From Bacteroidaceae bacterium (lineage in GTDB: Bacteria; Bacteroidota; Bacteroidia; Bacteroidales; Bacteroidaceae): a stretch of 45,234 bases of DNA. This document shows, piece after piece, positions 1 to 44,106 of the stretch (its first letter is position 1; each line of letters opens with the position of its first letter). The DNA is taken from assembly GCA_017962495.1 (NCBI GenBank), contig JAGCVH010000034.1:1-45234 (forward strand), given 5' to 3'. A model generated the notes under the pieces. That model was not told the DNA's origin. It did not search any database and saw only the letters and a program-made list of their open reading frames with translations. Position numbers and translations under genes: made by a program.

Positions 1-1988
1 CCCATGCCTATGCTCCATCGTTGATAGCCCACCGTCATGTGGACTTGGGGGTGGATGTAGGTGCCGTTCTTCGACAGACTTATGCCTGGTTTGTGTTCCC
101 AACGGCGGCGATGCAGGTCGTAGGAGTTGCGTGGGTCGGTGATGGCCGTGAGGGCATCGAGCTGCGAGGGCAAAAGTAGGGTATCGGGATGATAGAGCCA
201 GTCATGATTGTCGGTCACCGTTACGTTTGCCCCGTCGCCTGCCGACAGCGTCAGGTCGTGGCCGAGTTCCTTGTGATAGGTGAACGATGCCACGCCCCCC
301 GTCCAGCGGTTCCGGATGGAGCGGGCGTTGAGGCTTTCTCCCTTGTTGGGGAGAGGGGTTGTCTGGTATAGCTTACCCTCCTCCGTTTCCTCGTTTTCGT
401 AGTTTACCCAGCCATAGTAGAAGATGTGCTGCTTGGGTCGGCGGAACTTGACGGTACCCTGTGCATCGGCGGTGAGCCCCCACGTTGTTCCTTCGTTCAT
501 GCCCACGGTGCGCTGCAGGATGGTGAGCGAGTCGGCCCACTCCTCGAACGCCGAATGCATGGAGCCATTGCGATGGGCATAGCGGAAGTCGGCGGTAATG
601 TAGGTCCAGGGTTTCTTTATGGTTAAGTCATTGTGCAGGTTCAGGCGGTTGTTACCCTGGCGATTGAAGGCTTCGGTCTGCGCAGTCGGCTTCAGTCCGC
701 CGAGGTACTGCTCGCGGTGTTGCCGCATGGTCTGCTCGTCATTTGTGGAGGTGAACTCTGCACGGAATATTTCCTTCACCTTGTCCTCTTTGGCGTAGTA
801 GGCCAACTCGCCCGCAACGCTGCGTGTCGTCAGTTCGGAGCGAGGCATCTTGGCTGGCGTCCAGTGGCCGGACTGCCCAGCATGGCGCGTCTCGTTTACA
901 TTGTTTACATTACCCAGCAGCGTCAAGCGAAGGCGGTCGGTAAATCCCAACAGGAAGCCACGGCCCAGGTAACGCTTCTCCGTGCCACCAGCAGCCTCCA
1001 CGTTGGCAATGTAGCCCCGACTGTATTCGTCTTTCAGATTCACGTCCATCACATACTTTCTCGGCTCCACGTCGTAGCCCAACGCCTCGTTCTTTTCCGT
1101 CTGTTTTTCATAGACCTTCACCGTCTTCACGGTGTAGTAGGGCAGGTTCTCCATCAGCACACGCTTGTTGCCACCGAAGAACGTGTGAGAACCCAGTAGA
1201 AGTTCGTCCACTTTGCGCCCGTGAACGAATATCTCGCCCTGGTCGTTCAGCGTCACGCCAGGCATTTGGCGGATGAGGTCACCCAGCATAGAACCCTCGG
1301 GCAATTGGAAGGCCGTGGCATCGTAGATGAGTGTGTCGCCGCGCCAAAAGAACTTCACCTTCGTGGCTGTCACCACCAGTTCCTTCATCGTCTTGCCCTG
1401 CATCTTGCGCATACTCAGCGTGGGTGCCTCCACCTCCTGCTCTCCGGCAGGAACAGCCACGCGCTGCCACTGGTCGTCATAGCCGTCGAGTTGGGCACGG
1501 ACGAGGTACTCCTTCGCCAGACCGCTGACCTCAGCTGAATAACGAGCCATCACTATGCGCTCACCACGACCAATGAAACGCATCATTTGTGCCGAGTCCA
1601 CGACCACCGTGCTATCCGCCGAGAAAATGGAGATATGAGCCTCGGGCAGGGGCATCTTCAAGAAACCGTCCTCCACTTTGCCCCCGAGGACAATGGTCTG
1701 CAGGCGCTGCTTCCGCTTGGCCTGCACGGTGATGTGCCTGCCGTCTGTGTTCACCTTTACGGGCAGTCCCTTGCAGAGCCGACGCACGTCATCAAGCACC
1801 CTCTGGCCCTTCGGACGAACACTCGTACGCAATTCCGTCAGTCCTTCGGTCATGATGTCGATAGTGTATTCAGGATGTTCGCGGGCTATCGTTTGCAGGG
1901 CTTCGATGAGAGGCCGAGATCCGTCTTCTTGTGCTGACAGGGGACCAGCTACAAGTATATATATAATAAGGTATAACAGCCGTCGCAT
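1..1988 (-). CDS. TonB-dependent receptor-like outer-membrane protein, C-terminus outside the window
   Basis: Open reading frame from an ATG at 1988 to the window edge without a stop (662 codons seen). A signal peptide of about 20 residues ends in LSAQ. An STN-like region (about 22-95) and a carboxypeptidase-regulatory-like beta domain follow. Then comes a plug-like segment with KELVVTATKVKFFWRGDTLI, a GSMLGDLIRQMPGV motif and NLPYYTVKTVKVYEK, typical of Bacteroidetes receptors that bring a barrel to the outer membrane. The rest alternates aromatic and polar residues like barrel strands. The start overlaps the anti-sigma stop as TGATG, so translation is probably coupled. Its position after a sigma/anti-sigma pair suggests regulated surface uptake; the substrate is unknown. 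A C-tract element is read in frame near 336-365 (TTPLPNKGES). Confidence 0.85.
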   Translation of the reverse strand, partial: MRRLLYLIIYILVAGPLSAQEDGSRPLIEALQTIAREHPEYTIDIMTEGLTELRTSVRPKGQRVLDDVRRLCKGLPVKVNTDGRHITVQAKRKQRLQTIVLGGKVEDGFLKMPLPEAHISIFSADSTVVVDSAQMMRFIGRGERIVMARYSAEVSGLAKEYLVRAQLDGYDDQWQRVAVPAGEQEVEAPTLSMRKMQGKTMKELVVTATKVKFFWRGDTLIYDATAFQLPEGSMLGDLIRQMPGVTLNDQGEIFVHGRKVDELLLGSHTFFGGNKRVLMENLPYYTVKTVKVYEKQTEKNEALGYDVEPRKYVMDVNLKDEYSRGYIANVEAAGGTEKRYLGRGFLLGFTDRLRLTLLGNVNNVNETRHAGQSGHWTPAKMPRSELTTRSVAGELAYYAKEDKVKEIFRAEFTSTNDEQTMRQHREQYLGGLKPTAQTEAFNRQGNNRLNLHNDLTIKKPWTYITADFRYAHRNGSMHSAFEEWADSLTILQRTVGMNEGTTWGLTADAQGTVKFRRPKQHIFYYGWVNYENEETEEGKLYQTTPLPNKGESLNARSIRNRWTGGVASFTYHKELGHDLTLSAGDGANVTVTDNHDWLYHPDTLLLPSQLDALTAITDPRNSYDLHRRRWEHKPGISLSKNGTYIHPQVHMTVGYQRWSIGM

Positions 1989-2590
1989 CACTCGTCCTCT
2001 CCGTCATTAAATTCCACCATCAGTGTATCTTCCTTTAGGGTCAGTTGTAGCCCCTCAAAACGGTTCAAACGTCCGATGAATTCCACGAGCGAGTCGGCTG
2101 GATTCCACATCATGATGAGCCGTATCTCACGCGCCTCGTCATTGCGGAACTGCACTGCCTTGCCGTAGTGCCCGGCAACAACTGTCAAGATACTATCCAG
2201 CCGTACTTCGTCAAAATAGACAGACCCATCCTCCTCTTGTCCCTCCCTTGCAGGGTGAGTAATGCTTACCGAATTATCTTGGGGAGCAACCGCATGGGTC
2301 GATTTCAGACGTGGATATACAATCGCCCATACCACGCCACCGAGGAGGGCGATGCCGACCAACATGGCAGCGATGCGTTGCCACCTTCGTACGGGGAGGT
2401 CCTCCCTGCGAGGCATCGCGATAGGCGAATGCTGGGGACGCAGGAGTTTATCCACTGACCTGAGGCCTTCGTAGTAGGCACGGCACGACGGACACTCAGC
2501 AAGGTGCCGTTCGCAGTCGGCCTGCACCTGTGGGGCAACCTCCTTGTCGAAGAGGTCGGCCACGCTATTCCTGAATTCGTTGCAATCCAT
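1988..2590 (-). CDS. Membrane anti-sigma factor with zf-HC2 and DUF4974-like domains
   Basis: 200 residues. The cytoplasmic N-terminus has a zinc-type anti-sigma motif: C3, H29, C33 and C36 in an H-x3-C-x2-C arrangement. One membrane segment lies at about 70-93 (RIAAMLVGIALLGGVVWAIV). The periplasmic part ends in a DUF4974/STN-like fold (LDSILTVVAGHYGKAVQF to LTLKEDTLMVEF), as found at the C-terminus of FecR-type anti-sigma factors. The central FecR domain is absent, so this is a ZAS/FecR-C hybrid. It starts 2 bp after the sigma gene and overlaps the receptor gene by 1 bp. The linker before the periplasmic domain (THPAREGQEEDGS) is encoded by a copy of the C-tract repeat. It probably holds the sigma factor until the receptor signals. 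Confidence 0.85.
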   Translation of the reverse strand: MDCNEFRNSVADLFDKEVAPQVQADCERHLAECPSCRAYYEGLRSVDKLLRPQHSPIAMPRREDLPVRRWQRIAAMLVGIALLGGVVWAIVYPRLKSTHAVAPQDNSVSITHPAREGQEEDGSVYFDEVRLDSILTVVAGHYGKAVQFRNDEAREIRLIMMWNPADSLVEFIGRLNRFEGLQLTLKEDTLMVEFNDGEDE

Positions 2591-2592
2591 AA

Positions 2593-3108: not shown

Positions 3109-3126
3109 CCTCTATTAGTATAACGC

Positions 3127-3159
3127 AGAAGTTACGAAAAAGACTTAATTTCAAGCAAA
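3127..3159 (-). promoter_or_regulatory. Candidate promoter of the sigma/anti-sigma/receptor operon
   Basis: On the minus strand TTTG (3156-3159) is followed after 21 nt by TAACTTCT (3127-3134), an imperfect match to the Bacteroidetes TTTG/TAnnTTTG promoter. GTAACTT occurs at 3129-3135 and again at 3162-3168, exactly 33 bp apart, which would place both on the same DNA face. Autoregulation by the sigma factor is possible but not shown. Confidence 0.45.
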
Positions 3160-3174
3160 AAAAGTTACAAATGC

Positions 3175-3214: not shown

Positions 3215-3238
3215 TTAGTCATCAACCTAAAATCTTAT

Positions 3239-4105
3239 TTACTTTGGCAGGTTGAAGGCGCGAGTCATCTCTGCCATCTGTTCGTCGCTCATGCCTTCGG
3301 GCTCGTGACCCATGGCGCGGCTCTGGATGTAGATAAGGGCGCTCTTGTTGAGGACATCGATTTGGTCGAAAGCGGCCATTACATCGACATCTACGGCAAA
3401 GACGCCGTGCTTCTCCCACATCACCACGTCGTAGTCGTCGTCGATGGTGCGGATGGTGGCTTCTGCCAGTTCGTTACTGCCGGGCAACATGTAGGGCACC
3501 ATGCCCAGTCCGCGGGGACAGAAGGCCTTGGTCTCTGGAATCATGGACCACAGCATGCGCGTTGCTACATCTTTCTCCATCCACTTCTGGCTGTGTGTCA
3601 GAGCTACGAGCTCGATGGGATGGGTGTGCAGCGAGGCTCGATAGGGCGAGCCCTTGGCGAGGAGATAGTCGTGTACGGCCAGATGGCTGGGCAGTTCCGA
3701 GGTGGGGCGAACGGGGTTGTCGGCAATCATCTCGTAGGATGCACAGTCGTCGAGGATGCGGATGATGCTGCCGTTCTCCATGGGACGACGGGCAAGATCG
3801 CGCATGCGCATGTTCGTACCTTTACAATAGAAATAACAGCCCTTCAGGTGGGGCAGTGTCAGCCCGATGGGTGTCACTGGGCCAATGGCTGGCATCTGGC
3901 GAATGTCGTCGTCCACCAGTTCTGTCACGTTCACGGTGATGTTGCCACCATTGCGCTCAGCCCATCCCTTCTGCCAAAGAAAGCCTGCTACTTCGGCAAC
4001 TTTCTCTACTTCTGCCCTCAAGGCGGGGCGACCTTCTAAAATAGAAGACCCAACCCCTAACCCCTCCCTTGTAGGGCGGGGAGTAGTTACATTTATCTCT
4101 TGCAT
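3239..4105 (-). CDS. rhaD: L-rhamnulose-1-phosphate aldolase
   Basis: 288 residues. This class II zinc aldolase splits L-rhamnulose-1-phosphate into dihydroxyacetone phosphate and L-lactaldehyde. Visible family marks are GWAERNGGNITVNV, the glutamate in TSELPSHL (E137), the zinc histidines of LHTHPIE (H160, H162) and H233 in WEKHG. Numbering runs about 20 residues ahead of the E. coli enzyme. The excess is the N-terminal segment TTPRPTREGLGVGSS, encoded by a C-tract palindromic repeat (about 4041-4089); remembered Bacteroides homologues start at about the SILEGRPAL that follows. Last gene of the rha operon; its terminator follows directly. Confidence 0.95.
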   Translation of the reverse strand: MQEINVTTPRPTREGLGVGSSILEGRPALRAEVEKVAEVAGFLWQKGWAERNGGNITVNVTELVDDDIRQMPAIGPVTPIGLTLPHLKGCYFYCKGTNMRMRDLARRPMENGSIIRILDDCASYEMIADNPVRPTSELPSHLAVHDYLLAKGSPYRASLHTHPIELVALTHSQKWMEKDVATRMLWSMIPETKAFCPRGLGMVPYMLPGSNELAEATIRTIDDDYDVVMWEKHGVFAVDVDVMAAFDQIDVLNKSALIYIQSRAMGHEPEGMSDEQMAEMTRAFNLPK

Positions 4106-4182: not shown

Positions 4183-4219
4183 AACGGGGCAAGAAGGGAG
4201 GGGCTGGAGGTGGGTCTTA
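4183..4219. repeat. C-tract/G-tract palindromic element, intergenic copy
   Basis: Between rhaD and the transporter gene. Read on the minus strand it gives GACCCACCTCCAGCCCCTCC and a TTCTTG loop, matching the element embedded in rhaD but in opposite orientation. The 111-bp spacer holds nothing else recognisable. Confidence 0.6.
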
Positions 4220-5599
4220 TTCTCCATAGCGCTCACGGGTTATCTGCTCGAGCGACTTGCCACGGGTGTTTGGAGCACCGATGACGCCGACCAAGAGAGA
4301 GATGCCGAGCAGGACTATCATGCACCATGCGGCAAGGGTGAAACCTTCGCCGTTCTCGCCATAGATGAGCGTGAAGACGACTCCCCACACTGCCGAGAGA
4401 CCGCGCACGACAAAGAACATCAGACCTTGGGCTCCGGCACGGAACTTGGCAGGGAAGAGTTCACTGCCCCACAAGGCATAGAATATCTGCACGGAGAGAC
4501 CGCCGTTAATGCCCCAGAGGATGGAGAATGCCCACAGACTGCCCATGCCGTTGACGCCTGCGATGATGACAAACCATGTGGCAAGGGCTGCTATAAGGCC
4601 CAGCACATAGAAGAGTTTGTGAGGCAGACGGTCGATGAGGAACGAAAGCACGAAGGTGATGGCCACGACGAATGCCCATCCGGCACACGCAAGCATATTG
4701 GCATACTCATTGCTGACACCGCCTGCTGTCTCGTAGATATGGGGCTGGAAGAAGCCCATCACGGAGGCCACAAGATTCCAGGTAAGGTAGATGGTGGCAA
4801 GGAAAGCGGCAGTGCGCACTGCAACTTTGTTGCGGAACAACACCTTGATGTTTTCCCAGAGTCCCGTCTTCTCTCCGACTGCGTTATTCGCCTCGAACTC
4901 AGAACTTTCCTGCAGTCCACGCTGTAGATTCCAAGCCACAAAGGCAACCACAAAGAGGGAGAAGAATACGACACGCGAACTGAAGACATTCAGGGCTTCC
5001 GTAGAGAGGGCATCGCCTGCCACAGCATGGGCTATCGCCTCGACCCAACCGAACAAATATCCGCCTGGCGCAAAGAGCATGCCCAGCAGAAGGATGAACA
5101 TCGGACCAAAGCCCCACGACATCTGCGAAATGCAGATATTGCGACCGCGATTGTTGACTTCGGAACTCTCACTGATGTAGGTCCACGAGGCGGGAACTCC
5201 CACGCCCACAGAGATGCCAGTGACTAGGAAACCGCATAGCAACATGGGGAAGTTGACCGACAACATGACGAGCAGGACTCCCGTCATATATACCAACAGG
5301 TTGTAGGTGAAAATGAACTTTCGCCCGTACTTATCGGCAAGGAATCCGCCGATGATGGCACCGATGGCTGCTCCCAGGCAGTTGGCACTGATGAAGTTGA
5401 GCCACCCCAGATGCACCTCCGACAGCCCCAGATAGTTCTGCCACAGGGTGAGTCCACTTGCTCCTGCCACAATGGCTCCAGCGTCGAGGTAATTGGTGAG
5501 AGATACCGCGATGGTGCTTTTTAAGGAGGAAGAAGAAGACCCTCCCCCGACCTCTCTCGAAGGAGAGTGTTTACTATTGCAACTTGCGTTATTATCCAT
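4217..5599 (-). CDS. MFS sugar transporter, probable rhamnose permease
   Basis: 460 residues with about 12 hydrophobic helices. Sugar-porter signatures are visible: GGFLADKYGRKFIF in the first half, a PASWTYISESSEVNNRGR loop, ELFPAKFRAGAQG in the second half and the terminal PNTRGKSLEQITRERYG. Its place between rhaA and rhaD makes L-rhamnose (or a related deoxysugar) the likely substrate; that is inference from context. The first 31 residues (about SPSREVGGGSSSSS) are low-complexity and encoded by a C-tract repeat copy (about 5524-5573). The conserved part seems to start at LKSTIAVSLTNYLDAG. Bacteroides rha operons, as I remember them, carry a different (RhaT/DMT-like) permease here. Confidence 0.85.
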   Translation of the reverse strand: MDNNASCNSKHSPSREVGGGSSSSSLKSTIAVSLTNYLDAGAIVAGASGLTLWQNYLGLSEVHLGWLNFISANCLGAAIGAIIGGFLADKYGRKFIFTYNLLVYMTGVLLVMLSVNFPMLLCGFLVTGISVGVGVPASWTYISESSEVNNRGRNICISQMSWGFGPMFILLLGMLFAPGGYLFGWVEAIAHAVAGDALSTEALNVFSSRVVFFSLFVVAFVAWNLQRGLQESSEFEANNAVGEKTGLWENIKVLFRNKVAVRTAAFLATIYLTWNLVASVMGFFQPHIYETAGGVSNEYANMLACAGWAFVVAITFVLSFLIDRLPHKLFYVLGLIAALATWFVIIAGVNGMGSLWAFSILWGINGGLSVQIFYALWGSELFPAKFRAGAQGLMFFVVRGLSAVWGVVFTLIYGENGEGFTLAAWCMIVLLGISLLVGVIGAPNTRGKSLEQITRERYGE

Positions 5600-5620
5600 T
5601 TTTTCTTATAATAGGTATCT

Positions 5621-5655
5621 ACTCCCTCCCCTCGGGAAGGGTCAGGAATAGGGGT
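5621..5655. repeat. C-tract/G-tract palindromic element, intergenic copy
   Basis: The 56-bp gap between rhaA and the MFS gene is almost entirely a repeat copy (TCCCTCCCCTCGGGAAGGGT then an AGGGG tract). It lies 50 bp from the in-frame copy inside the MFS gene. Confidence 0.65.
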
Positions 5656-6909
5656 TTATCTTTTACTCGTCACTTCACATTCGTACTGCTCCACCTCCTT
5701 GACAAAGTCAAGACCAACGGGAACGCTGTTTCGAACACAGAACTCGTCATAGACAGCAGCCCAAGGCAACGACTTGCACTCCTCGATAGCCGCCAGATTC
5801 TGGAATCCCTTGCCGTCGAGTTCAAGTTGACTGATGAGAGCCGTCGGTTCGAGCAAGGCACGAGTCATACAACGCTGTGCAGCACGACTGCCCACGACAT
5901 AGGCACCAACGCGATTGATGCTGGCGTCGAAGTAGTCGAGACCATAGTGAACGCGGTCGAGAGCCTGAGCACGAACGATTTCCTGGAACAGTTCCAGCGT
6001 CGGGTCGTCCATGATGGTCACATGGTCGCTATCCCAACGGATAGGACGCGAGACATGCAACATCAGTTCGGGTACAAACTGCAGCACGGCGCTCACCTTG
6101 TCGGCAGGACTCTCCGTGGGGTGGTAGTGACCCGTGTCGATGGTCAGTATCTTGTTGTTCTTTGCCGCATAAGCCGTATAGAAATCGTGACTACCTACGG
6201 TGAAACTCTCCAGACCGATGCCGAACACCTTACCTTCGATGCAATCCTTCATCATGGGTTGTGGCTTTTCGAAGATTTCATCGAGACTTTCTTTCAGCAA
6301 GCGACGATAGAGATAGTGGTTCACACTTTGGTCCTTGCAGCCGTCATGCACCCAAAGGTTCATAATGCAAGGGTCGCCCTGCGCCTCTCCCATCGCGTTG
6401 GCAATGTCGCGACAGCGCTTGGTGTGTTCAATCCAGAACTGACGAATGCCGTCGTCGGGATTCGACAATGTGAGGTTTCCACTCTTGGGATGCGAGAAAC
6501 TGCTACTGTTGAAGTCGAGTTTGGTATCGTTCTCCTTACCCCAGTCAATCCAACTCTGGAAATATGAGGCATCTACCTCGTCACGATCAACGACCTTTCC
6601 TTGGAAATCACCATAGATTTCGTGAAGGTTCAGACGATGCGTGCCGGGAATCAGACTCTTAGCCTTCAGGATGTCGGCTCTGAGTTCATCGATGTTACGG
6701 GCCCGGCCAGGGTAGTTGCCTGTAGTCTGGATACCACCGGAAAGACTGCCGGCTTGCACCTCAAAACCTACCACATCGTCGGCCTGCCAACAATGCATCG
6801 AGAGGTGGAAATCCTGCAGTTGTTTCAATACTTGCTCAGTGTCGATGCCTACCTCTGCGTAACGCTCGCGCGCCACTTCGTAGGCCTTGCGGATAGTTTC
6901 TTCTTTCAT
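5656..6909 (-). CDS. rhaA: L-rhamnose isomerase
   Basis: 417 residues, normal for the family. It converts L-rhamnose to L-rhamnulose, the first cytoplasmic step of catabolism. Recognised by the N-terminal HLSMHCWQADDVVGFE, the GGIQTTGNYPGRARN motif, the metal-site region NLWVHDGCKD, and LTIDTGHYHPTESPADKVS with the acid/base residues of the TIM-barrel. It starts 1 bp after the rhaB stop, so the two are co-transcribed and probably translationally coupled. Confidence 0.97.
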   Translation of the reverse strand: MKEETIRKAYEVARERYAEVGIDTEQVLKQLQDFHLSMHCWQADDVVGFEVQAGSLSGGIQTTGNYPGRARNIDELRADILKAKSLIPGTHRLNLHEIYGDFQGKVVDRDEVDASYFQSWIDWGKENDTKLDFNSSSFSHPKSGNLTLSNPDDGIRQFWIEHTKRCRDIANAMGEAQGDPCIMNLWVHDGCKDQSVNHYLYRRLLKESLDEIFEKPQPMMKDCIEGKVFGIGLESFTVGSHDFYTAYAAKNNKILTIDTGHYHPTESPADKVSAVLQFVPELMLHVSRPIRWDSDHVTIMDDPTLELFQEIVRAQALDRVHYGLDYFDASINRVGAYVVGSRAAQRCMTRALLEPTALISQLELDGKGFQNLAAIEECKSLPWAAVYDEFCVRNSVPVGLDFVKEVEQYECEVTSKR

Positions 6910-12016: not shown

Positions 12017-12048
12017 TAAAGGTACGATTAAGTGAGCGAAAACACAAA
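12017..12048 (-). promoter_or_regulatory. Proximal putA promoter
   Basis: On the minus strand TTTG (12045-12048), 20 nt, TACCTTTA (12017-12024). It matches the Bacteroidetes housekeeping promoter and would start transcription about 55 nt before the putA ATG. Confidence 0.7.
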
Positions 12049-12091
12049 TTTATTTGATGTTTTCCGAGCGATAGTACCTAAGACCGCAGGT

Positions 12092-12123
12092 CAAAGGTAC
12101 GAATAAGTGAGTGGAAAAACAAA
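12092..12123 (-). promoter_or_regulatory. Promoter-like repeat copy, middle
   Basis: Minus strand TTTG (12120-12123), exactly 20 nt, TACCTTTG (12092-12099), a perfect consensus. The -7 box lies inside one arm of the palindrome, and the predicted transcript begins in the hairpin. Confidence 0.6.
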
Positions 12124-12282
12124 AAAATAGAGAAAAATGATAGAAAGGCATCTTTATTCGCTTGTAAGTTCACTTACAAAAAGCGTATTAAAGGGCTTTT
12201 TCGTGGCCTTAGGCCATAATTGCGAAAGCAATATTTTTCTCTATTCTATTTTTCCCGAGCGGGAGTACCTAAGACCGCAGGT

Positions 12283-12314
12283 CAAAGGTACGAATAAGTG
12301 AGCACAAATGCAAA
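12283..12314 (-). promoter_or_regulatory. Promoter-like repeat copy, distal
   Basis: Minus strand TTTG (12311-12314), exactly 20 nt, TACCTTTG (12283-12290). Same geometry as the other two copies; it would add a leader of more than 300 nt to putA mRNA. Confidence 0.6.
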
Positions 12315-12412
12315 TTTATTTGCAATTTGTAGAGCGATAGTACCTAAGAGACTTCACTGAAGGCTCAGAGGTACATAATCGGCTTGCTCCGCAAGCGCAT
12401 CCATCACTTCCT

Positions 12413-18295: not shown

Positions 18296-18340
18296 GAAGG
18301 GACCCCTCTCCCCGCTCCCCCGAGGGGGAGGGCCTTCCTT
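18296..18340. repeat. C-tract/G-tract palindromic element
   Basis: GACCCCTCTCCCC, a short middle, then CTCCCCCGAGGGGGAG, a strong palindrome. Same family as the copies inside rhaD and other genes. Confidence 0.7.
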
Positions 18341-18772: not shown

Positions 18773-21700
18773 ATGATTCAACGTAACATTGATTGTTTTA
18801 TTCCCTACGGGGACGAGGCGGATGCCCTGTCCCTAATTGACCAACTGCGAAGCGACCCCAATGTGGGCGAGATTCACCAGCTGACGGAGCCCCCTTTCGC
18901 AACGCGCGTGCTTAACGACATTGCCGACCGATGCCACGCCCGATACACCCTCCTGTACACGAAGACAATGCCCCTGGAACTGGGCTATCAGGCGCTGACC
19001 CGACTGGTGACCATTGCCGACGACAGCGGGGCGCAGATGCTCTATGCCGACCACTACATCAAACACCCCGACGGGACGCAGGAGCGCCGCCCACTCATCG
19101 ACTACCAACTGGGTTCGGTGCGCGACGACTTCACGATGGGTTCCGTACTGCTCATACGCGCAGAAAGCCTGAAACGCTACTTCGAGCAGGATATCGTGCA
19201 TCCGTACCAGCATGCCGGACTCTACGACTTGCGATTGTTCCTTTCGCGCGAGATGCTGCCCCTGCACATCACGGAATACCTCTATACGGAGGTGGAAAGC
19301 GACTGCAGGCTGAGTGGGGAGAAGCAGTTCGACTACGTTGACCCGCGCAATCGTGCGCGACAGGTGGAAATGGAACGGGCTGTGACCCGGCACCTGCGCC
19401 AAATCAATGCCTACATGGCGGCTGGCGAGTGGGAACAGATCATCCTCGACCGCGAACCGATGCCCGTCGAGGCCTCCGTCATCATCCCCGTGAGGAATCG
19501 CGTTCGCACCATCGAAGACGCCGTGCGGTCGGCTCTGGCTCAGGAAACGACGTTCCCCTTCAACGTCATCGTCATCGACAACCACTCGACGGACGGGACA
19601 ACGGAAACTCTGGAAAGACTGCTGAACGACTCCTCACTCCTCGCTCCTCACTCCTCCCTGGTCCATCTCATCCCCGAACGCGACGACCTGGGCATAGGCG
19701 GTTGCTGGAATCTGGCCATACACGACCCGCGCTGCGGACGGTTTGCCGTGCAGCTCGACTCCGACGACCTTTATTCCTCACCAAACACCCTGCAACGCAT
19801 CGTCGATACGTTCTATGCCGAGAATGCAGCGATGGTGATTGGTTCGTACCGCATTTGTAATTTCCAGTTGGAGACATTGCCGCCAGGACTCATCGACCAC
19901 AGCGAATGGACCGAAGCCAACGGACGAAACAACGCCCTTCGCATCAACGGACTGGGCGCACCCCGTGCGTTCTTCACACCCATACTTCGCCAGATTCAGA
20001 TCCCGAACACCAGTTATGGCGAAGACTACGCTCTGGGACTGATGCTGAGCCGGCGCTATCGCATCGGACGCATCTACGACGAACTGTATCTGTGTCGCCG
20101 ATGGGAAGGCAACAGCGATGCTGCGTTGAGCATCGAAGCCGTGAACCGCAACAACCTGTACAAGGACCAACTGCGAACGCTGGAGATACGAGCCAGGCAA
20201 CAACTGAACCGACTTTGGCAACATGAGGTAAATGCCGATGAAATCGAACAATTTCACGCATCGGAAGTGGCAAACTGGGCCATTGCTGCCGAGAACTATG
20301 CCGCTCTCGCCAACGTGCAAACAAAAGAACTGACACAGGGCGATTTGGCGTTGACCGTACAGTGGAACCCCAAGCGAATCGTCAGCACCGGGGCTAAGGT
20401 GGATGCTAAGACCATCAGCGAACGGCCTTGTTTCCTCTGCAGTCACAACCGTCCGAAGGAACAGCACAGCCTGCCCACGGAGAAGCACTATGAAATACTG
20501 CTCAACCCCTTCCCCATCTTACCAGGACACTTGACCATCCCCACACGGCGACACCAACCACAGGCCATCTTTACGCACTTCAACACCTTGCGGCACTTGG
20601 CTTGGAACATGCCCCGTCACATCGTATTCTACAACGGACCTGAGTGCGGAGCGTCATGTCCCGACCACTGCCACCTGCAAGCCGGACTCCGAGGGCTACT
20701 GCCTTTGGAAAAAGATTGGAAGCATTACGAGACGCAGTTGCAAAAACTTTATCCCGTCACACCTCAACAGCAAGTCGAAGTGGAGGAGGCTGGCAACAAG
20801 CGCGGTTGCGGACTCTACCTGCTACGCTCCTGGGCCTGTCCCGTATTCGTGATTCGTTCCCTTCCCACAGCGCCCGACAGCGTATTATGCCAACGCCTCT
20901 ACGAAGCTCTGCCCATACCTAACGGGGCTACCGAGCCACACATGAACGTCATCTCTTGGCATCAGGAATGGGGCAGCGGACGAGACGACGAAATCATCAC
21001 GCTCATCTTCCCACGTAAGAAACACAGACCCGACTGCTACTTCGCCCAAGGCGACGAACAGTTGATGATAAGTCCAGGTGCATTGGACATGGGAGGCCTC
21101 ATCATCACCCCACGCGAAGAGGATTTCCGCCGACTGACTGCGGCACAATCCCTGAGCATCCTTCGCGAGGTAACTATGACCGAGGATGAACTGCAACCCG
21201 TGATTGACAAGATACAGGACAACGAGAACAACGAAAGTCCTGAAACTTCCGAACAAACCGAACAATCCGAGCCTGAAGTATCCGTCGGCATAATGACCAC
21301 CGAGAAACTCACTTTCTGCCTGAACGGCGATTTCCGTGCCAAAGGAAATATCGTGACGGGCGAGCAAACTGTCGGCATCGAGGATGGTGCCCTGCAGTGG
21401 AACGGGAACATCTATCACGACCTGACTTTCCGCCCCCTGTCGGAGGAGTCTTCATTTAGTCTGCATGAGGTGACCATCGGCAAGCAGTTCCACTGGGAAC
21501 GCCAAGAGACACAGACCTTCCAGGGGAAGTTGCAACTGGTCATCGACGAGAGCAAGATTGTGGCCATCAATGTCCTACCCGTAGAAACCTATCTGACAAG
21601 CGTCATCAGCAGTGAGATGAAAGCCACCTGCCCGTTGGAGTTCCTGAAGGCAAGCGCCGTCATCAGCCGTTCGTGGCTCTTGGCCCAGATGGAAAAGCGG

Positions 21701-24253: not shown

Positions 24254-24400
24254 GACTGCAAAGATAGTGCAAACCGAGCGAAAAAGCAAATACATTTGTA
24301 ATTTTCCAAGGTGTAGCCTATCTAAGAAGATAGTCAGAGATACGATTAAGCGAGAGGAAAAACAAATTTTATTGAAACAAAGACGAAGAAATGCTTGCAT
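24254..24400 (-). repeat. Promoter-bearing repeat upstream of rsmA
   Basis: Related to the elements upstream of prmC and putA: CAAAGATAGTGCAAACCGAG followed by an AAA-GCAAAT-ACATTTG inverted region and a CTATCT-AAGA-AGATAG palindrome. A second GATACGATTAAGCGAG segment near 24341 resembles the putA-side units. Confidence 0.75.
24259..24290 (-). promoter_or_regulatory. rsmA promoter inside the repeat
   Basis: Minus strand TTTG (24287-24290), exactly 20 nt, TATCTTTG (24259-24266). The first ATG begins 5 nt after the -7 box, so the mRNA should be leaderless or nearly so. Confidence 0.75.
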
Positions 24401-28172: not shown

Positions 28173-28228
28173 CAAGACCCCCTCTCCCTAATCCCTCCCC
28201 CTCGAGTGGGGAGGGACTTTAAAGGGAA
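28173..28228. repeat. C-tract/G-tract palindromic element, intergenic copy
   Basis: CCCCCTCTCCCTAATCCC, then TCCCCCTCGAGTGGGGAGGG. The C-strand has four runs of three or more C (28178-28201), so the minus strand could form a G-quadruplex. Confidence 0.7.
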
Positions 28229-28466: not shown

Positions 28467-29078
28467 CTACCGATTTTTGATGGCTAACGTGTTGCTTCCA
28501 TAATACACACGATAGCGATAGAGTGCCTTGCCAGCATCCCCCTGACTCACCTGTCCCGTATTATTCAGGTCATAGGTGCGATGACAACGAGAGCAGTAAG
28601 CCAACCCTCCTTCCTGCAAGGTCAGACTACGGGCAACATACGCCTCATCGTAGCAGTTGCGGCAAGCCAAGTCGTAGCAAGTAACCACAGATCTGACTTC
28701 GCCCAGTTCGGGAATATTGGGCAAGCCCACGATAAAGCCCGCCAAACCCATATAGAAGCCCGTATAACCGTCAACAGCCATGCGATTGGCTTCGCCTTGC
28801 GAACCATTTGCCTTTGTGAAGAGGAACTTGTTGCCTGTGGTCAGGATGGTACACCACTCTCCCATCGATTCACAAGACGTATAAAGCTGCGATATGCTGT
28901 TGACAGGCGTAAACGTGAAGCGTGCTGGCAACGAACAATACTTGTTGCTCACCATCTCGTCATTGCAAGACATACAAGAAAGAAGAAGGCAAAGAAAGAC
29001 GCAAAAGCCCTTTGCCTGCCTCCCCCAAAGGGGAGGAGTAAATACTCTACTGTATGATGCACAAAAAAACTTTATCAT
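28467..29078 (-). CDS. Lipoprotein with a C-x2-C zinc-ribbon / Rieske-like domain
   Basis: 203 residues. A hydrophobic stretch GFCVFLCLLLSCMSC gives a lipoprotein signal with the cysteine in LLSCMSC. The rest has a beta-rich body and CRNC plus CSRC pairs (CYDLACRNCYDE ... LAYCSRCHRTYDLNNTG), which suggests a rubredoxin-like zinc or iron site resembling the small Rieske-like lipoproteins of Bacteroides. The first 22 residues (ASYSRVFTPPLWGRQAKG) do not look like a signal peptide and are encoded by a C-tract repeat (about 29007-29044). Only the ATG at 29078 gives an intact frame across the signal. Function unknown. Confidence 0.75.
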   Translation of the reverse strand: MIKFFCASYSRVFTPPLWGRQAKGFCVFLCLLLSCMSCNDEMVSNKYCSLPARFTFTPVNSISQLYTSCESMGEWCTILTTGNKFLFTKANGSQGEANRMAVDGYTGFYMGLAGFIVGLPNIPELGEVRSVVTCYDLACRNCYDEAYVARSLTLQEGGLAYCSRCHRTYDLNNTGQVSQGDAGKALYRYRVYYGSNTLAIKNR

Positions 29079-29762: not shown

Positions 29763-29911
29763 TTTGACGATTTGACGATTTGACTGCTCGGCGACGTCAG
29801 GAGACGCTTGCGTTGCATCGCGGAGCAAGAATTTGACAATTGAATTCTCCTCCCCACGGGGAGAGTTCTTGCTCGGGCAAGCGTCTCTTTGAGCCGAGCG
29901 AGAGAGGGACC
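29763..29911. repeat. Repeat cluster between pyrE and the SRPBCC gene
   Basis: Tandem TTGACGAT words (29763-29784) come first. A plus-strand CGCTCGGC/GGAGCAAG element (29786-29832) differs by two bases in 47 from the copy at 42182. A C-tract piece follows (TCTCCTCCCCACGGGGAGAG, about 29845-29864). An inverted element lies at 29866-29900: on the minus strand CGCTCGGC, then AGACGCTTGC, then GAGCAAGAA. Confidence 0.8.
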
Positions 29912-30544
29912 TTAAACCTTCCAATTAGCAGGATCTTGTCGCCAGTCGTTCAGGAGGTCGATGTCACTCTCAGAAATATATCCGATACGCAAGGCCTCAC
30001 TCACCACAGCCTCGTAGTTGGTCAGGGTCACCAGATTCACGCCAGCTTTCTTGAAAGCCTTCTCTGCCTCCTGGAATCCGTAGGTGTAAGCAGCCACCAT
30101 GCCGATGACCTCGCATCCGTTGTTGCGAATGGCCTCCACTGCCTTCAGACTGCTTCCGCCCGTCGAGATAAGGTCCTCTATGACCACCACCTTCATGCCA
30201 GGCTTCAGTTCACCCTCTATCAGGTTCTCCAGTCCGTGATCCTTGGGTTTCGAACGCACGTACACGAAAGGCTTGCCAAGCACGTCGGCAACCAGAGCAC
30301 CCTGAGGAATGGCACCTGTGGCAACGCCGGCAACAGCCTCCACTTCGGGGAAGCGTTCCATGACGATGCGAGCCGTCTCCAGTTTCACAAAAGAGCGCAA
30401 TTCGGGATACGACAACGTCTTACGATTATCACAATAGAAGGGGCTCTTCCAGCCCGATGCCCAGGTGAAGGGATTATTAGGTTGTAACTTAATAGCCTTG
30501 ATATTCAACAGCTTAGCTGCAAAAATTTTCTCTAATGTCTTCAT
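29912..30544 (-). CDS. pyrE: Orotate phosphoribosyltransferase
   Basis: 210 residues. It joins orotate to PRPP to make OMP in pyrimidine synthesis. The PRPP loop is seen as MKVVVIEDLISTGGSSLKAV, with the family N-terminus MKTLEKIFAAKLLNIKAIKL, the orotate region FTWASGWKSPFYCDNRK, and VAGVATGAIPQGALVAD. The frame is open to 30853, but homology begins at the ATG at 30544, 29 nt after a promoter -7 box. The upstream extension carries C-tract-repeat sequence and is untranslated. Confidence 0.96.
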   Translation of the reverse strand: MKTLEKIFAAKLLNIKAIKLQPNNPFTWASGWKSPFYCDNRKTLSYPELRSFVKLETARIVMERFPEVEAVAGVATGAIPQGALVADVLGKPFVYVRSKPKDHGLENLIEGELKPGMKVVVIEDLISTGGSSLKAVEAIRNNGCEVIGMVAAYTYGFQEAEKAFKKAGVNLVTLTNYEAVVSEALRIGYISESDIDLLNDWRQDPANWKV

Positions 30545-30572
30545 ACTCTTATCTTTAAAAAGAAAACAACCG

Positions 30573-30580
30573 CAAAGGTA
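30573..30580 (-). promoter_or_regulatory. pyrE promoter -7 box
   Basis: TACCTTTG on the minus strand, 28 bases before the ATG. No good TTTG is found 19-21 nt upstream, so it is a weaker or activator-dependent promoter. Confidence 0.55.
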
Positions 30581-31275
30581 CAAAATAATCTTTAAATGCT
30601 TCGGAAAAACTTTGTTTTTTTGCATCACCACACTGAAGTTATAGTAAAGAGGAGACCGCATAATGGAGTCAGAAAGGATAAAGCCATGTTTCCCTCTGCA
30701 AGAGGATAGGCGGAGTAACGAAACGTTACGTACTCCCCTCGCTATAAGAGAGGGGAAGGGGGTGAGTCCATAATTTATTCGATGAAATGGGCACTTTTCG
30801 AAAATAATTACAGATAAACTATCTCTCATAAGAAGATGTATAAATGCGAACAAGCGAACGAACGAAAGCAGGCTCGATGATAAATCAATAAGCGTTCGAT
30901 TTGCATCACCTAGGAGAGATACACCGCCGGCAAACGTGTCCTCATCTCACCCTTCACTTCTCTTCTTACATCAAAGAATTAAGCATCCTAAAGTTCGAGC
31001 GAGAAGGAATTGCAAAAACGAGGAGGATAAGGGCACTCTCCCAATTCGGGAGGGTGCCTATGAAAGAGTGTTAAACCAGACGCCCTGAATCAATGCCCCA
31101 ACTATGCAACGAGGAATTTTCAAAAACATACAAATAAATAATAGTTTGTTGCAACAACGGCTATTATAATGATAAATTGAAAACTTCGCGGGCGGATGCT
31201 TAACACTTTGACAATTTGTGACATTTTCATCTTGTAAAGTAAAAGAATCGTGTGTTCTATTCTATGGAAACGTCA

Positions 31276-31683: not shown

Positions 31684-31803
31684 CACTCCTCTTGCCATCC
31701 TTCCCAGGGAAGGCGTATTTAACAACATTTTATTTTATAATACAAGACCCAATGCCCCTATTATGGTCTTCCCCTTCGTGGGATTAGAGGGGGGCCTTAT
31801 ATT
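31684..31803. other. Spacer between glnK and amtB with C-tract repeat pieces
   Basis: Two short palindromic C/G tracts (near 31699-31712 and 31765-31796, the latter GTCTTCCCCTTCGTGGGATT then AGAGGGGGGCC). This fits a degenerate copy of the family inside an operon. Confidence 0.5.
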
Positions 31804-35293: not shown

Positions 35294-35380
35294 GATGCAA
35301 AGGTAGTGCAAACCGAGAAAAATGCCAAATTTATTTGAGTCTTTCCGAGGTCAAGCCTGCTTTCGACAATAGTACAAATA
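35294..35380 (-). repeat. Promoter-bearing repeat upstream of prmC
   Basis: Shares GCAAAGGTAGTGCAAACCGAG, an AAATTTATTTGA inverted region and CTTTCCGAGGTCAAGCCT with the rsmA repeat. Same orientation relative to the gene. Confidence 0.75.
35298..35329 (-). promoter_or_regulatory. prmC promoter inside the repeat
   Basis: Minus strand TTTG (35326-35329), exactly 20 nt, TACCTTTG (35298-35305). The ATG follows the -7 box by 4 nt, so the transcript should be leaderless. Confidence 0.75.
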
Positions 35381-35411
35381 AAAGTTTAAAAGTTTAAAAG
35401 TTTAAAAGTTT
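35380..35411 (+). repeat. Four perfect tandem copies of AAAAGTTT
   Basis: 32 bp of an 8-bp word repeated four times, then degenerate TTTAAC/TTTAAT units up to 35430. It ends 2 bp before the probable TTG start of ribD. Confidence 0.95.
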
Positions 35412-35432
35412 AACGGTTTAATAGTTTAATCT

Positions 35433-36365
35433 TTGGAACAGCGAGAAATAGATGAGAAGTACATGCGGCGCTGCCTGCAACTGGCGCGATGCGGAGAGGC
35501 AGGGGCTGCACCCAACCCCATGGTGGGGGCAGTGGTGGTGTGCGATGGACGTATCATAGGTGAAGGCTATCATAGCAAATGTGGCGAAGCGCACGCTGAA
35601 GTCAATGCTATCGCCTCTGTCAAAGAGCCCGAACTGTTGAGCCGAAGCACCATATACGTCAGTCTGGAACCTTGTGCCCACTACGGCAAAACGCCACCAT
35701 GTGCCCAACTCATCATCGAGAAGCACATACCCACGGTCGTCGTGGGTTGTCGCGACCCCTTTGCCCGTGTCGATGGACGAGGCATCACCATGCTGCACGA
35801 GGCTGGCATAGAAGTTCGCGAAGGAGTGTTGGAGCAGGAATGCCTGTGGCTGAACCGTCGCTTCATCACCTTCCATACGAAACACCGACCCTACATCACC
35901 CTGAAATGGGCACAAAGCGAGGATGGATACATCGATCGCCTGCGCACCAGCGACCAAGAGCCTGCGGCACGTCTGTCGACACCAACCACACAGGCCTTGG
36001 TGCACCGCCTTAGAAGCCTGCATCAAGCTATACTGGTAGGTAGGCGCACTTGGGAACTCGACCATCCACGACTCGACGTACGCCATTGGACAGGTCACAA
36101 CCCGATACCCGTGGTATTAAGTCAGAAGGATATCCCCCACCTGCTTGCGGAACTCTACGACAAAGGTGTCCAAAGTCTGCTGGTTGAGGGCGGACGAGAG
36201 ACCCTGCAAGGCTTCATCGACAAGGGTCTGTGGGACGAAGCCAGAATAGAGACCTCGCCCCAACAATTGGGTTCTGGCATAAAAGCACCACAAATTGAGG
36301 GTAAAATTGGCCAAAAACTGTTAATTGAAGGCAACACAATAGCTCTTATTTATAAAAATTCTTAA
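35433..36365 (+). CDS. ribD: Bifunctional riboflavin deaminase/reductase
   Basis: 310 residues. The N-terminal cytidine-deaminase-like domain has HAEVNAI and PCAHYGKTPPC (zinc ligands). The C-terminal reductase has YITLKWAQSEDGYI, ILVGRRTWELDHPRLDVR and SLLVEGGRETLQGFI. It performs the second and third steps of riboflavin synthesis. The conserved N-terminus DEKYMRRCLQLARCG has no ATG before it. An in-frame stop lies at 35427-35429, so TTG at 35433 is the only start that keeps it; the next ATG (35463) would lose ten residues. The start directly follows the tandem AAAAGTTT repeat. No promoter of usual form was found. Confidence 0.93.
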   Translation: MEQREIDEKYMRRCLQLARCGEAGAAPNPMVGAVVVCDGRIIGEGYHSKCGEAHAEVNAIASVKEPELLSRSTIYVSLEPCAHYGKTPPCAQLIIEKHIPTVVVGCRDPFARVDGRGITMLHEAGIEVREGVLEQECLWLNRRFITFHTKHRPYITLKWAQSEDGYIDRLRTSDQEPAARLSTPTTQALVHRLRSLHQAILVGRRTWELDHPRLDVRHWTGHNPIPVVLSQKDIPHLLAELYDKGVQSLLVEGGRETLQGFIDKGLWDEARIETSPQQLGSGIKAPQIEGKIGQKLLIEGNTIALIYKNS

Positions 36366-39373: not shown

Positions 39374-39398
39374 GGAAGTGAAAAGGAAATACTCGATA

Positions 39399-42035: not shown

Positions 42036-42318
42036 CATAATTCATAATTCATAATTAAGTAATTCATAATTAAGTAATTCACAATTCATCGCTCGGCATC
42101 TGCGAAGCAGTGACGCTGCGAAATATAATGGAGCAAGAATTCACAATTCATAATTAAGTAATTCATAATTCACAATTCATCGCTCGGCGACGTCAGGAGA
42201 CGCTTGCGTAGCAACGCGGAGCAAGAATTAAGCAATCGGACGATTGACAAGTCTAATAGTTTAGAGATAAAAGATAATAGATAACAGTTTATAGATAACA
42301 GTTAAGAATTTGGATACT
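42036..42318. repeat. Repeat mosaic between bamA and the first ompH gene
   Basis: Built of tandem TTCATAATTAAGTAA/TTCACAATTCAT words alternating with two CGCTCGGC/GGAGCAAG elements (42090-42140 and 42181-42228). Tandem AGATAAAAGATAATAGATAA words (42263-42300) follow up to the ompH start. About 90 bp (words plus element) is duplicated. No gene is seen. Confidence 0.9.
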
Positions 42319-42828
42319 ATGAAAAGATTAATTATCATGCTGGCCGTGGCACTGGGTGCCGTGACCGCCAACGCACAGAAGTTTGCTCTCGTCGACATGG
42401 AGTATATCCTGAAGAACATTCCTGCCTACGAGCGTGCTAACGAACAACTGAACCAAGTGTCGAAGAAATGGCAGGCCGAAGTGGAGGCCCTGCAGACCGA
42501 GGCTCAGACCCTGTATAAGAACTATCAGAACGAGGCCGTGTTCCTCTCTGAAGAACAGAAGACTAAGAAAGAAGAAGCCATCGTAGCCAAGGAAAAGGAA
42601 GCAAGCGAACTGAAGCGCAAGTACTTTGGTCCCGACGGCGAACTCTTCAAGAAGCGCGAAAGCCTGATGACTCCTATTCAGGACGAAATCTACAATGCCG
42701 TCAAGGATATCTCTGAGCAAAAGGGCTACAGCATCATCCTCGACCGTGCCAGCGATGCAGGCATCATTTTTGCCTCACCCAAGATTGACATCTCCAACGA
42801 GGTGCTGACGAAACTGGGATATAATTAA
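42319..42828 (+). CDS. OmpH/Skp family periplasmic chaperone, copy 1
   Basis: 169 residues from the ATG at 42319 (MKRLIIMLAVALGAVTANAQ signal peptide); the TTG at 42310 was rejected. After FALVDMEYILKNIPAYERA comes a long charged coiled coil (about 45-110) and a terminal beta strand region YSIILDRASDAGIIFASPKI. Skp-like trimers hold unfolded barrel proteins for BamA. First of three paralogues. Confidence 0.9.
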   Translation: MKRLIIMLAVALGAVTANAQKFALVDMEYILKNIPAYERANEQLNQVSKKWQAEVEALQTEAQTLYKNYQNEAVFLSEEQKTKKEEAIVAKEKEASELKRKYFGPDGELFKKRESLMTPIQDEIYNAVKDISEQKGYSIILDRASDAGIIFASPKIDISNEVLTKLGYN

Positions 42829-43001
42829 GGGTGAAGGATGAAGGATGAACCCATCTTCCCCCCATTTCCAAAGAGAAGAGAGCATGCCTGATATACTAAT
42901 GAAATATTAAAAATGCAAAATTAATTGGGAGAAGTGCACTCAATCCCACGACTCCCATTAATGCCATAAATCGAATAATCAACAAATTTCAAAATTACAT
43001 T
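42829..43001. other. Spacer between ompH copies 1 and 2
   Basis: 173 bp with a repeated GTGAAGGATGAAGGATGAA word at its start, a degenerate C-tract (42849-42870) and AT-rich sequence before the next start. No gene or clear promoter. Confidence 0.6.
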
Positions 43002-43508
43002 ATGAAAAAGATTTTAGTTATGATTCTGATGCTCGCCCCCATGAGCATCTTTGCACAAAAGTTTGCCCACTTCAACATGGCCAACATCCTGCCCGAGATG
43101 GAGGAATACAAGACCGCTATGGCCGAGATGCAGAAACTCACCACACAGTACCAAGAGGAACTGGAGCGCTTGCAGAAAGAGTATCAGACCAAGGGAGAAG
43201 AGTTCCAGAAACTTTCTGAGGACCAGAGCACCGCACAGGCTATCCTGCAGAGCAAGGCTCAGGACCTGCAGAAGATGGAGCAGAGCATCCAAGACTTCTA
43301 TCAGGCAAGCCAGCAAGATTTGCAGAAGCAGAACGACGAGAAGATGGAACCCATCCGCGCAAAGATAATGACCGCCATCAAGAAGATTGGCGAAAACGGC
43401 AGTTATGTCTACGTTGTCGATACCTCCATTGGCGCCATCTCCTTCATCAACGAGACCCTGAGCACCGACATCACCGCACAGCTGAAGGCCGAACTGGGCA
43501 TCAAATAA
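43002..43508 (+). CDS. OmpH/Skp family periplasmic chaperone, copy 2
   Basis: 168 residues. Signal peptide MKKILVMILMLAPMSIFAQ, then KFAHFNMANILPEMEEYKTA and a Q/E-rich coiled coil (about 45-115) ending in YVYVVDTSIGAISFINETL. Same layout as its neighbours but clearly diverged, so the triplication is old. Confidence 0.92.
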   Translation: MKKILVMILMLAPMSIFAQKFAHFNMANILPEMEEYKTAMAEMQKLTTQYQEELERLQKEYQTKGEEFQKLSEDQSTAQAILQSKAQDLQKMEQSIQDFYQASQQDLQKQNDEKMEPIRAKIMTAIKKIGENGSYVYVVDTSIGAISFINETLSTDITAQLKAELGIK

Positions 43509-43519
43509 ATTGGGGATTC

Positions 43520-43550
43520 ATCCCTTACCCCTCCTTTAGGGAGGAAGAAA
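43520..43550 (+). repeat. C-tract/G-tract palindromic element before ompH copy 3
   Basis: ATCCCTTACCCCTCCTTTAG then GGAGGAAGAAAC. It also supplies an AGGGAGGAAG purine tract just before the ompH copy 3 start. An inverted in-frame copy lies 60 bp on, inside that gene. Confidence 0.7.
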
Positions 43551-43569
43551 CTTGAACAATAGAATTCTT

Positions 43570-44106
43570 ATGAAGAAAATCGTTCTTCTTACCCTCATGG
43601 CCCTTTTCCTTCCCTTTAAGGGGAGGTTAGGAGGCCTCTATGCACAGGTTCAAATCGGCTACCTCAGCTACGAGGCAGTGCTGAAGCAGATGCCGGCATA
43701 CGCCCAAGCCCAGCATAGCCTCAACGAACTGAAGACCAAATACGAGCAGGAAGCCACACGTGGCGAAGAGGAGTTCCAACGTAAGTTCTCCGAATTCCTG
43801 CAAGGTCAGAAGGACTTTCCCGAGAACATACTCGTGAAGCGTCAGGCCGAACTGCAAGTGCTCATGGAGACAGGTATCAAGTTCCGCCAGGAAGCCCAAC
43901 AACTGCTGGCAAAGGCCGAACGCGAACTGATGGCAGGTGTGGAGTCACAACTCAACGACGCCATCCGTGTTGTAGGCGTAGAGGCGGGCTATGCTGCCAT
44001 CCTGAACACCGACAACAACCAATGCCCATTCGTCAATCCTGCCATTGGCGAAGATGTTACCAAAGCCGTTATGCGGAAGTTGGGGATAAAAGAGAAAGAA
44101 CAGTAA
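43570..44106 (+). CDS. OmpH/Skp family periplasmic chaperone, copy 3, with repeat inside the signal peptide
   Basis: 178 residues from the ATG at 43570. The signal region reads MKKIVLLTLMALFLPFKGRL then GGLYAQVQIGYLSYEAVLKQ. The hydrophobic core is interrupted by LPFKGRLGG, encoded by a C-tract element (43609-43637) that places K and R next to the expected cleavage site at YAQ. The body is a coiled coil (about 45-120) with an OmpH-type end AGYAAILNTDNN. Whether export still works is open. Confidence 0.88.
   Translation: MKKIVLLTLMALFLPFKGRLGGLYAQVQIGYLSYEAVLKQMPAYAQAQHSLNELKTKYEQEATRGEEEFQRKFSEFLQGQKDFPENILVKRQAELQVLMETGIKFRQEAQQLLAKAERELMAGVESQLNDAIRVVGVEAGYAAILNTDNNQCPFVNPAIGEDVTKAVMRKLGIKEKEQ

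Follow-up and report, generated by a model that had tools for sequence, protein, structure and literature searches.

Palindromic repeats that lie in frame inside protein-coding genes already have precedents in Rickettsia and in a number of species rich in repetitive extragenic palindromes (REP). Passages of PMC10969869 describe the Rickettsia palindromic elements (RPE) as units of about 150 bp found in frame in many unrelated genes, with nearly half of them inside open reading frames (ORFs). The sections of PMC3733652 drawn on here present the GTAG/CGTC REPs as palindromes of 20-40 bp that occur singly or as dimers near stop codons and, for some, in ORFs. The same sections report that in-ORF dimers of several genera encode 20-30 residues in hosts including uvrA and tRNA-modifying genes, treat RPE-4 and RPE-6 of R. 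conorii among the REP elements inside ORFs, mention that two Xanthomonas species have different REPs at roughly the same position of recB, and state that CGTC REPs have no dedicated transposase. Here we analyse contig JAGCVH010000034.1 of a Bacteroidaceae bacterium (assembly GCA_017962495.1; 45,234 nucleotides, the whole of which we call the window), in which an earlier note, made from the sequence, had described a palindrome of C and G tracts lying in frame in at least six genes. The element, referred to below as the GACCC palindrome, very probably belongs to a REP-like, non-autonomous family of palindromes of about 38 nt that has spread through one genus of uncultured Bacteroidales and occurs in frame in genes.

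The window belongs, as contig C90, to a draft metagenome-assembled genome (MAG) of 2,947,193 bases in 104 contigs, which is 85% complete. Throughout this genome, the strict pattern CCCTCCC-N(3-25)-GGGAGGG has 39 matches (two overlapping), against 1 for a control in which the pattern is read backwards. From 27 copies we built a covariance model, R1; genome-wide it gave 137 matches at E<=10, where 150 of 1074 candidates were scored and some matches are the opposite strand of one palindrome. Beside R1 we used a sequence profile on 41 stretches of the genome, window included, amounting to 637,343 bases; since these stretches were picked for holding matches, densities in them are not genome averages. 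The profile finds 96 copies at its main cut-off of at least 9 bits and none in three dinucleotide shuffles; at 7 bits or more it finds 112, against 0, 0 and 0. Enrichment over random C/G tracts, which the earlier note had proposed to look for, is therefore present by either count, and the dispersed palindrome family is real.

The conserved unit of about 38 nt consists of purines, GACCC, a C-rich tail, about three variable bases, the stem CCCTCCC/GGGAGGG and an AGTA end. The hairpin has a stem of 6-8 bp and a loop of the TTNAA or CGAG type. In 87 aligned matches (an alignment fitted to the model, and including some opposite-strand matches) the stem pairs in 96.3% of cells, and 40 cells are altered on both sides, as compensatory change, versus 14.0 in shuffles. 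Beyond the ends of the unit, 50 aligned copies show no strong conservation. Past the stem these copies have AGTA and thereafter neither a strong consensus nor a run of T, so that the signature of an intrinsic terminator is absent. A scan of the window against Rfam at the gathering score returned one tRNA only, and no family for the palindrome. The inner end sometimes reads AGTAnnTACnTTTG, which resembles the Bacteroides -7 box; the idea of a promoter was dropped, because the profile of 50 copies has no strong conservation there.

Neighbouring copies no more than 180 nt apart stand predominantly head to head (24 '+-' pairs, with 2 tail-to-tail '-+', 3 '++' and 3 '--'). A stop codon is included in 17 of the 24 head-to-head pairs, in or beside an arm in 16 of these, while 5 of the 24 lie within a gene and 4 contain a called start. 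The same preference appears when the 59 non-coding copies examined are taken by orientation: with the GACCC side toward the stop codon, the model start falls -3 to +5 nt from the stop in 23 of 36, versus 0 of 24 when the AGTA side is toward it. Pairs that frame a start codon had been a striking feature of rhaD, MFS and ompH3 in the window, but with 4 pairs holding a called start versus 17 with a stop and 5 in genes, this idea was rejected, weakly so because codon-score starts are unreliable. Stop adjacency is the better supported rule. Several clusters were also noticed: six GACCC copies lie inside 580 bases of the own genome (C61, L015:12279-12857), and three in one orientation, at a spacing of about 100 nt, form a partly duplicated unit at L051:4198-4460. 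In four related MAGs (L058, L060, L067, L068), a copy begins right at the TAG stop of rhaD.

Copy number differs widely between related bacteria. Across 37 genomes of the genus it goes from 0 to more than 100, with matches at E<=0.1 in 32 of the 37; values close to 100 in a genome are lower bounds because 106 candidates were scored. In the order as a whole, 20 of 198 genomes, the own genome included, have matches at E<=0.01, the others never more than 10. The closest syntenic relative (L043) is labelled 'uncultured Bacteroidales bacterium RUG14659', and the source bacterium is related to rumen Bacteroidales, the rumen link resting on the labels of close relatives.

Set beside the passages on RPE in PMC10969869, the family is alike in placing palindromes in frame in unrelated genes, where they would add peptides (29 of the 96 copies, in 21 called genes), and differs in its unit of about 38 nt, its frequent head-to-head pairs, its phylum, and the occupation of the same loops by different copies in several species. 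Judged by the published description, it would work like RPE, which is not to assign it to them. The parallel with Rickettsia drawn in the earlier note was an apt one, with copies in frame in tails, linkers and loops of unrelated genes. With the REPs, as far as those sections of PMC3733652 describe them, it shares a high-copy palindrome of 20-40 nt near ORF 3' ends, single or paired and sometimes in ORFs; unlike them it has a GACCC tail, a Bacteroidales host and no consensus GTAG/CGTC tag (among the 96 copies, GTAG stands 5' of the hairpin in 6 and on the other side in 14, and CGTC near an end in 11), and no REP-associated tyrosine transposase (RAYT) was found in the MAG. The phenomenon is of a known kind, in a lineage for which we found no earlier report, and its own features are the hairpin pairs, the stop-codon adjacency and the reuse of the same loops. 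Searches of openly accessible papers, at the level of titles and the openings of abstracts, found no description of the GACCC family.

To place the copies relative to genes, we called genes with a simple script based on codon scores, whose choice of starts is unreliable, and a copy was counted as in-gene when it overlapped a called gene by at least 30 nt. By this measure, beside the 29 in-gene copies, 17 touch a gene edge and 50 are intergenic. Since 30% of copies are in genes versus 81% of the sample sequence called coding, genes are avoided, yet far from closed. Codon-shuffled genes gave 1, 0 and 0 matches at 7 bits or more in three runs, versus 36 in the real genes, and none at 9 bits or more. 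As an internal control, a second dispersed palindrome, with 53 copies in the same 637 kb, has 3 of them in called genes (Fisher p 0.0003 against 29 of 96; the cut-offs differ slightly, at least 9 bits and 30 nt overlap for the GACCC palindrome and at least 10 bits and 35 nt for the second one). Copies inside genes show no loss of preservation relative to the rest (median 16.1 versus 17.2 bits, p 0.92). Most, 23 of 29, are internal to the protein, with 3 in the first 35 residues and 3 in the last 25. None of the window's copies is among them, because the caller put the starts of the host genes downstream of the copies. The consensus, by eye, is open in two of three frames on either strand, the third frame having a TAA; in the 21 in-gene copies with a placeable core, frame usage is 5, 3 and 2 for the element's own strand versus 8, 3 and 0 for the opposite one. 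Most of the peptides are of the PxLKGRxG or LPLREGxGxG type. A Pfam scan covering 16 of the 21 host genes (2 had no match, and that of L028 was only below the curated cut-off) found QueA, Fmt, MiaB-like and YgiQ-like radical-SAM enzymes, a family-2 glycosyltransferase, a YfhO protein, MATE and MFS transporters, a TonB receptor, an M56 peptidase and UvrA. The identities of QueA and Fmt were borne out by the analysis; YgiQ-like, MiaB-like, GltA-like, rhaD and rhaI are putative names, some of them taken from the earlier note.

For internal hosts, orthologous loci were compared, the best 30 from 41 genomes for each protein. Fmt of the own genome carries 'VKDLPQPSLKGRENS...' in a loop of its C-terminal domain; among the 30 loci compared, this insert was seen in no other, and its flanks are conserved. 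A separate group of copies occupies that loop in one of the other 29, L145. In the YgiQ-like protein, a pair of copies is present in the own locus only (1 of 30), again with both flanks conserved. QueA has in-frame copies in 7 of 30 loci (L157, L159, L160, L162, L163, L169, L170), in at least three loops; L162 and L163 have one copy in common and look like close relatives, and L158 has, by eye, a diverged one. Different copies thus occupy the same protein loops in different species. On the evidence of these alignments, in-frame insertions into conserved genes whose orthologues are empty are real. Relatives were empty at the positions tested, a check proposed in the earlier note, save where they have copies of their own; the exceptions, an anti-sigma factor and a TonB-type receptor, are described below. 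With the enrichment in the genome scan, the idea of the note has withstood both of the refutations it had named.

Other features of these loci were noted. In the Fmt insert (L002:10687-10855, contig C10), dispersed repeats of three kinds form one in-frame block: beside the GACCC palindrome there are a palindrome of about 70 nt, 'AAGGCTGCGATTGAGCGAGAG...', and a tandem repeat of the 8-bp unit CAATTGTC. Repeats of the octamer type are apparent by eye in the same loop in L137 and L138. The search with the YgiQ-like protein also matched residues ~213-260, the element peptide, alone at unrelated sites of other genomes (G017, contigs C11, C16 and C25; G014, C30; G026, C53; G027, C56; G036, C129), and most of these sites have an open frame, an indication that more copies lie in frame.

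Inside the window, the clearest host is rhaD (3239-4105, minus strand). The element at 4046-4087 (plus strand; R1 36.2 bits, although this copy helped to build R1) lies just past the start codon, reads TTPRPTREGLGVGSS on the opposite strand and provides some 18 extra N-terminal residues. The window protein has 288 amino acids versus 268-274 in 79 of the 80 loci kept from 521 relatives, the start of the 80th being cut by a contig end; for the relatives we assigned the start to the M closest to S(I/V)L, with an inspection of the frames upstream in 22. These 79 begin M..S(I/V)L, and the window gene has SILEGRPAL directly after the insert. In a structure model of modest overall confidence (mean predicted local distance difference test, pLDDT, 62.7), residues 1-19 are below 50 and the tail at 30-42. 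The comparison with relatives confirms the rhaD copy as an insertion. The adjacent MFS sugar transporter (4217-5599, minus strand; Pfam MFS_1 and Sugar_tr) has its element at 5534-5574 (plus strand, R1 15.7 bits), past the start codon, where it gives SPSREVGGGS. A head-to-head partner at 5617-5658 (minus strand, 28.0 bits) occupies the gap that separates the MFS start from the stop of the upstream gene, so that the MFS ATG stands between the arms. At the other end of the gene, the MFS stop TAA is directly followed by GACCCACCTCCAGCCCCTCCC, a degenerate partner arm at 4186-4216 (minus strand) recognised by eye only and outside the 25 R1 matches of the window. Eleven of the 14 MFS orthologues shown have no peptide and start M(S/G)K-SSLKSTIAV or alike; L049 has its own element peptide there, L116 the same by eye, and L043 is ambiguous. 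This copy too is confirmed, by the same kind of comparison, as an insertion.

Several other explanations have to be weighed against insertion of a mobile family. That the palindromes are chance C/G tracts or an artefact of assembly is extremely improbable: the source is a draft MAG of 104 contigs, but the shuffles hold no match at 9 bits or more, and in separate MAGs the same loops carry copies that are related yet distinct. A subtler doubt concerns the N-terminal copies, which might be untranslated if the real start lay downstream and the open frame were fortuitous. Four host genes of the window do have the copy near the 5' end, the codon-score caller starts rhaD, MFS and the lipoprotein gene downstream of it, and a passage of PMC3733652 warns of exactly such mistaken starts for REPs. 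Against this stand the predominance of internal copies among the 29 and the conservation of Fmt, QueA and the YgiQ-like protein on both sides of the insert; in rhaD, a downstream start would remove the conserved residues that directly follow it. We regard this explanation as unlikely. It is also rather unlikely, if somewhat less remote, that the palindrome is a functional mRNA hairpin under selection at gene ends, where it would protect 3' ends or control translation, and that the in-gene copies are side effects. REPs of E. coli protect transcript 3' ends or control translation, and the position of GACCC-facing copies at stop codons, the stop codons held in or beside the arms of pairs and the compensatory changes in the stem would all suit such a role. 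However, it would be odd for a needed signal to range from 0 to more than 100 copies among the species of a single genus, and the copies inside genes are numerous and equally preserved.

Insertion in turn raises the question of which enzyme moves the palindromes. A classical REP/REPIN system mobilised by a RAYT (Y1 HUH) transposase would leave just such short palindromes, numerous and paired head to head close to gene ends, and PF01797 (Y1 transposase) matches at E<=0.001 in 22 of 61 genomes of the genus, weakly also in the copy-rich G003 and G017. But PF01797 has no match in the own MAG, 85% complete as it is, or in five copy-rich relatives (G015, G016, G018, G019, G029), no copy of 6 bits or more occurs in the six best-matching Y1 loci from the genus (L121-L126, about 3.3 kb each), and GTAG is rarely found 5' of the hairpin; RAYT was accordingly rejected as the mover, and a system of this type is very improbable here. 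Those six loci have motifs such as YIENQKEHH, which resembles the subclass 1.2 motif YIKNQKEHH given in PMC6006769. The same source, in a passage on TnpA-Y1 subclass 2.6 in Bacteroidetes, mentions 'atypical secondary structures'; the phylum and the structured repeats elsewhere in the genome are alike, but no such gene was found here. Among the known designs, a REPIN consists of two inverted REPs with a conserved spacer that move as one unit, and a miniature inverted-repeat transposable element (MITE) has terminal inverted repeats and a target-site duplication. Head-to-head pairs are found here as well, but the spacer between the paired arms varies in length and sequence, so that a REPIN whose arms share a conserved spacer is ruled out, and this MAG yielded no RAYT; since the spacer is not conserved, the pair is no clear transposition unit.

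These points about spacer, PF01797 and Y1 loci weigh against a mobile family, and so do some others. No target-site duplication or exact junction is readable against relatives, because these are too diverged in the loops. Among the internal hosts compared (Fmt, the YgiQ-like protein, QueA and the GltA-like protein), a clean insertion present in the own locus only was seen in two, Fmt and the YgiQ-like protein. In the GltA-like protein, the copies, present in 3 of 30 loci, lie in a linker; this was not used as proof of insertion, the linker being similar in length and variable among relatives. Some in-gene copies are weak, such as those in UvrA (9.2 bits) and in the MFS gene of L014 (10.8 bits). 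The palindrome-like stretch in the TonB-type receptor of the window (336-365, minus strand; R1 12.3 bits at 333-367, E 0.58) was rejected as an insertion, since an 89%-identical orthologue in L043 is equally long there.

Our preferred reading remains that of a REP-like mobile family. Its units, single or paired head to head, would settle between genes, often right at a stop codon, and also inside genes. Because the consensus is open in two frames per strand, an insertion whose total length keeps the frame could add a proline- and glycine-rich peptide of roughly 15-55 residues without breakage. It would survive where a longer loop, linker, tail or signal peptide is tolerated, and the element would afterwards drift into new sequence, insertion presumably preceding drift. 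We infer the spread of the family from the range of copy number in the genus and from the different copies in the same loops; it would be brought about by a trans-acting enzyme, and the element-bearing proteins are presumably made and active. A bolder proposal, possible but held tentatively, is that in this genus certain loops of conserved enzymes (the Fmt C-terminal domain, QueA, the MFS start) are landing sites that accept several unrelated kinds of dispersed repeat, one at a time or as blocks, and keep them in frame while these drift into linkers, the palindromes being moved by an enzyme other than RAYT. If so, inserts drifting into new linkers would mean that non-coding DNA steadily becomes new protein sequence. 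The Bacteroidales case would offer a possible route from non-coding repeat to protein sequence in conserved enzymes, and the gain, position and decay of the peptides are traceable along a tree because many related genomes differ so widely in copies. The family makes the enzyme that moves the palindromes a question in itself, and it calls for caution in annotation: extra loops and odd N-termini in proteins of such MAGs may be derived from repeats.

The other copies of the window are less telling. R1, run over the window without filters at E<=10, gave its 25 matches, which include five of the six in-gene copies named in the earlier note and five further copies. By the R1 and profile scans, the palindromes lie where that note had placed them or a few bases off, and an ORF check upheld its frames and peptides for rhaD, MFS, the anti-sigma factor, the lipoprotein and ompH3. 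Of the six proposed insertions, those in rhaD and MFS are thus clear and those in ompH3 and the lipoprotein supported, the anti-sigma copy is shared with L043, the one close relative, and the TonB one falls away. The pairing head to head, the position beside stop codons and the stronger cases in other parts of the genome go beyond what the note had seen. In the lipoprotein gene (a label from the earlier note; 28467-29078, minus strand, no Pfam family) the element at 29003-29043 (plus strand, R1 21.1 bits) gives FTPPLWGRQAKG in the N-terminal leader. Of the 20 best loci from the 41 genomes, 17 of the 19 others have no copy, and L221 and L236 have copies of their own there; this supports a probable insertion, but the leaders are too variable to align. 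The third OmpH-like gene (43552-44106, plus strand; Pfam OmpH) is an ORF opening with TTG, with an MKKIV start 18 bases further. Its element, at 43601-43639 (minus strand; R1 12.0 bits, E 0.64), lies inside the signal peptide and gives LPFKGRLGGL; the head-to-head partner at 43512-43552 (plus strand, 19.3 bits) comes directly behind the stop codon that closes the second OmpH gene, and the arms enclose the start of the third. Here no copy of 8 bits or more occurs in the other 29 of the best 30 loci, which supports insertion as the likely origin, but signal peptides vary. R1 also matches unclaimed sequence at 18796-18828 (13.8 bits) and 31766-31798 (12.5 bits); since these two score alike, the R1 score alone proves nothing for ompH3 and TonB.

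The anti-sigma factor (1988-2590, minus strand; Pfam zf-HC2 at residues 3-37) has in its linker a diverged element at 2226-2268 (plus strand), which gives THPAREGQEEDGS. It is outside the R1 matches and weak by the profile (7.4 bits at 2236-2255). The sole relative found among 80 loci, L043, has an in-frame copy at the same place, so that no empty site was seen, and three more copies in the gene. A copy at 30729-30770 (minus strand, R1 24.6 bits) lies in the TTG-start extension of a 313-residue ORF (29912-30853), probably upstream of the true start. Two copies are intergenic, one at 28177-28222 (plus strand, R1 20.3 bits, also a match of the strict pattern) and one of a related subtype at 18298-18337 (plus strand, R1 14.9 bits, E 0.16).

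The window also contains repeats of other kinds. The second palindromic family, used above as a control (AAAGGTACGATTAAGTGAGCG...), is found at 12018-12083, 12095-12132, 12284-12349, 24260-24325 and 35296-35373. A 55-nt repeat, GCTCGGCGACGTCAGGAGACGCTTGCGT..., is present at 29786-29840 and 42182-42236 with 91% identity, and short direct repeats occupy 35379-35434 and 42039-42170 (TAAAAGTT every 8 bases; AATTCATAATT).

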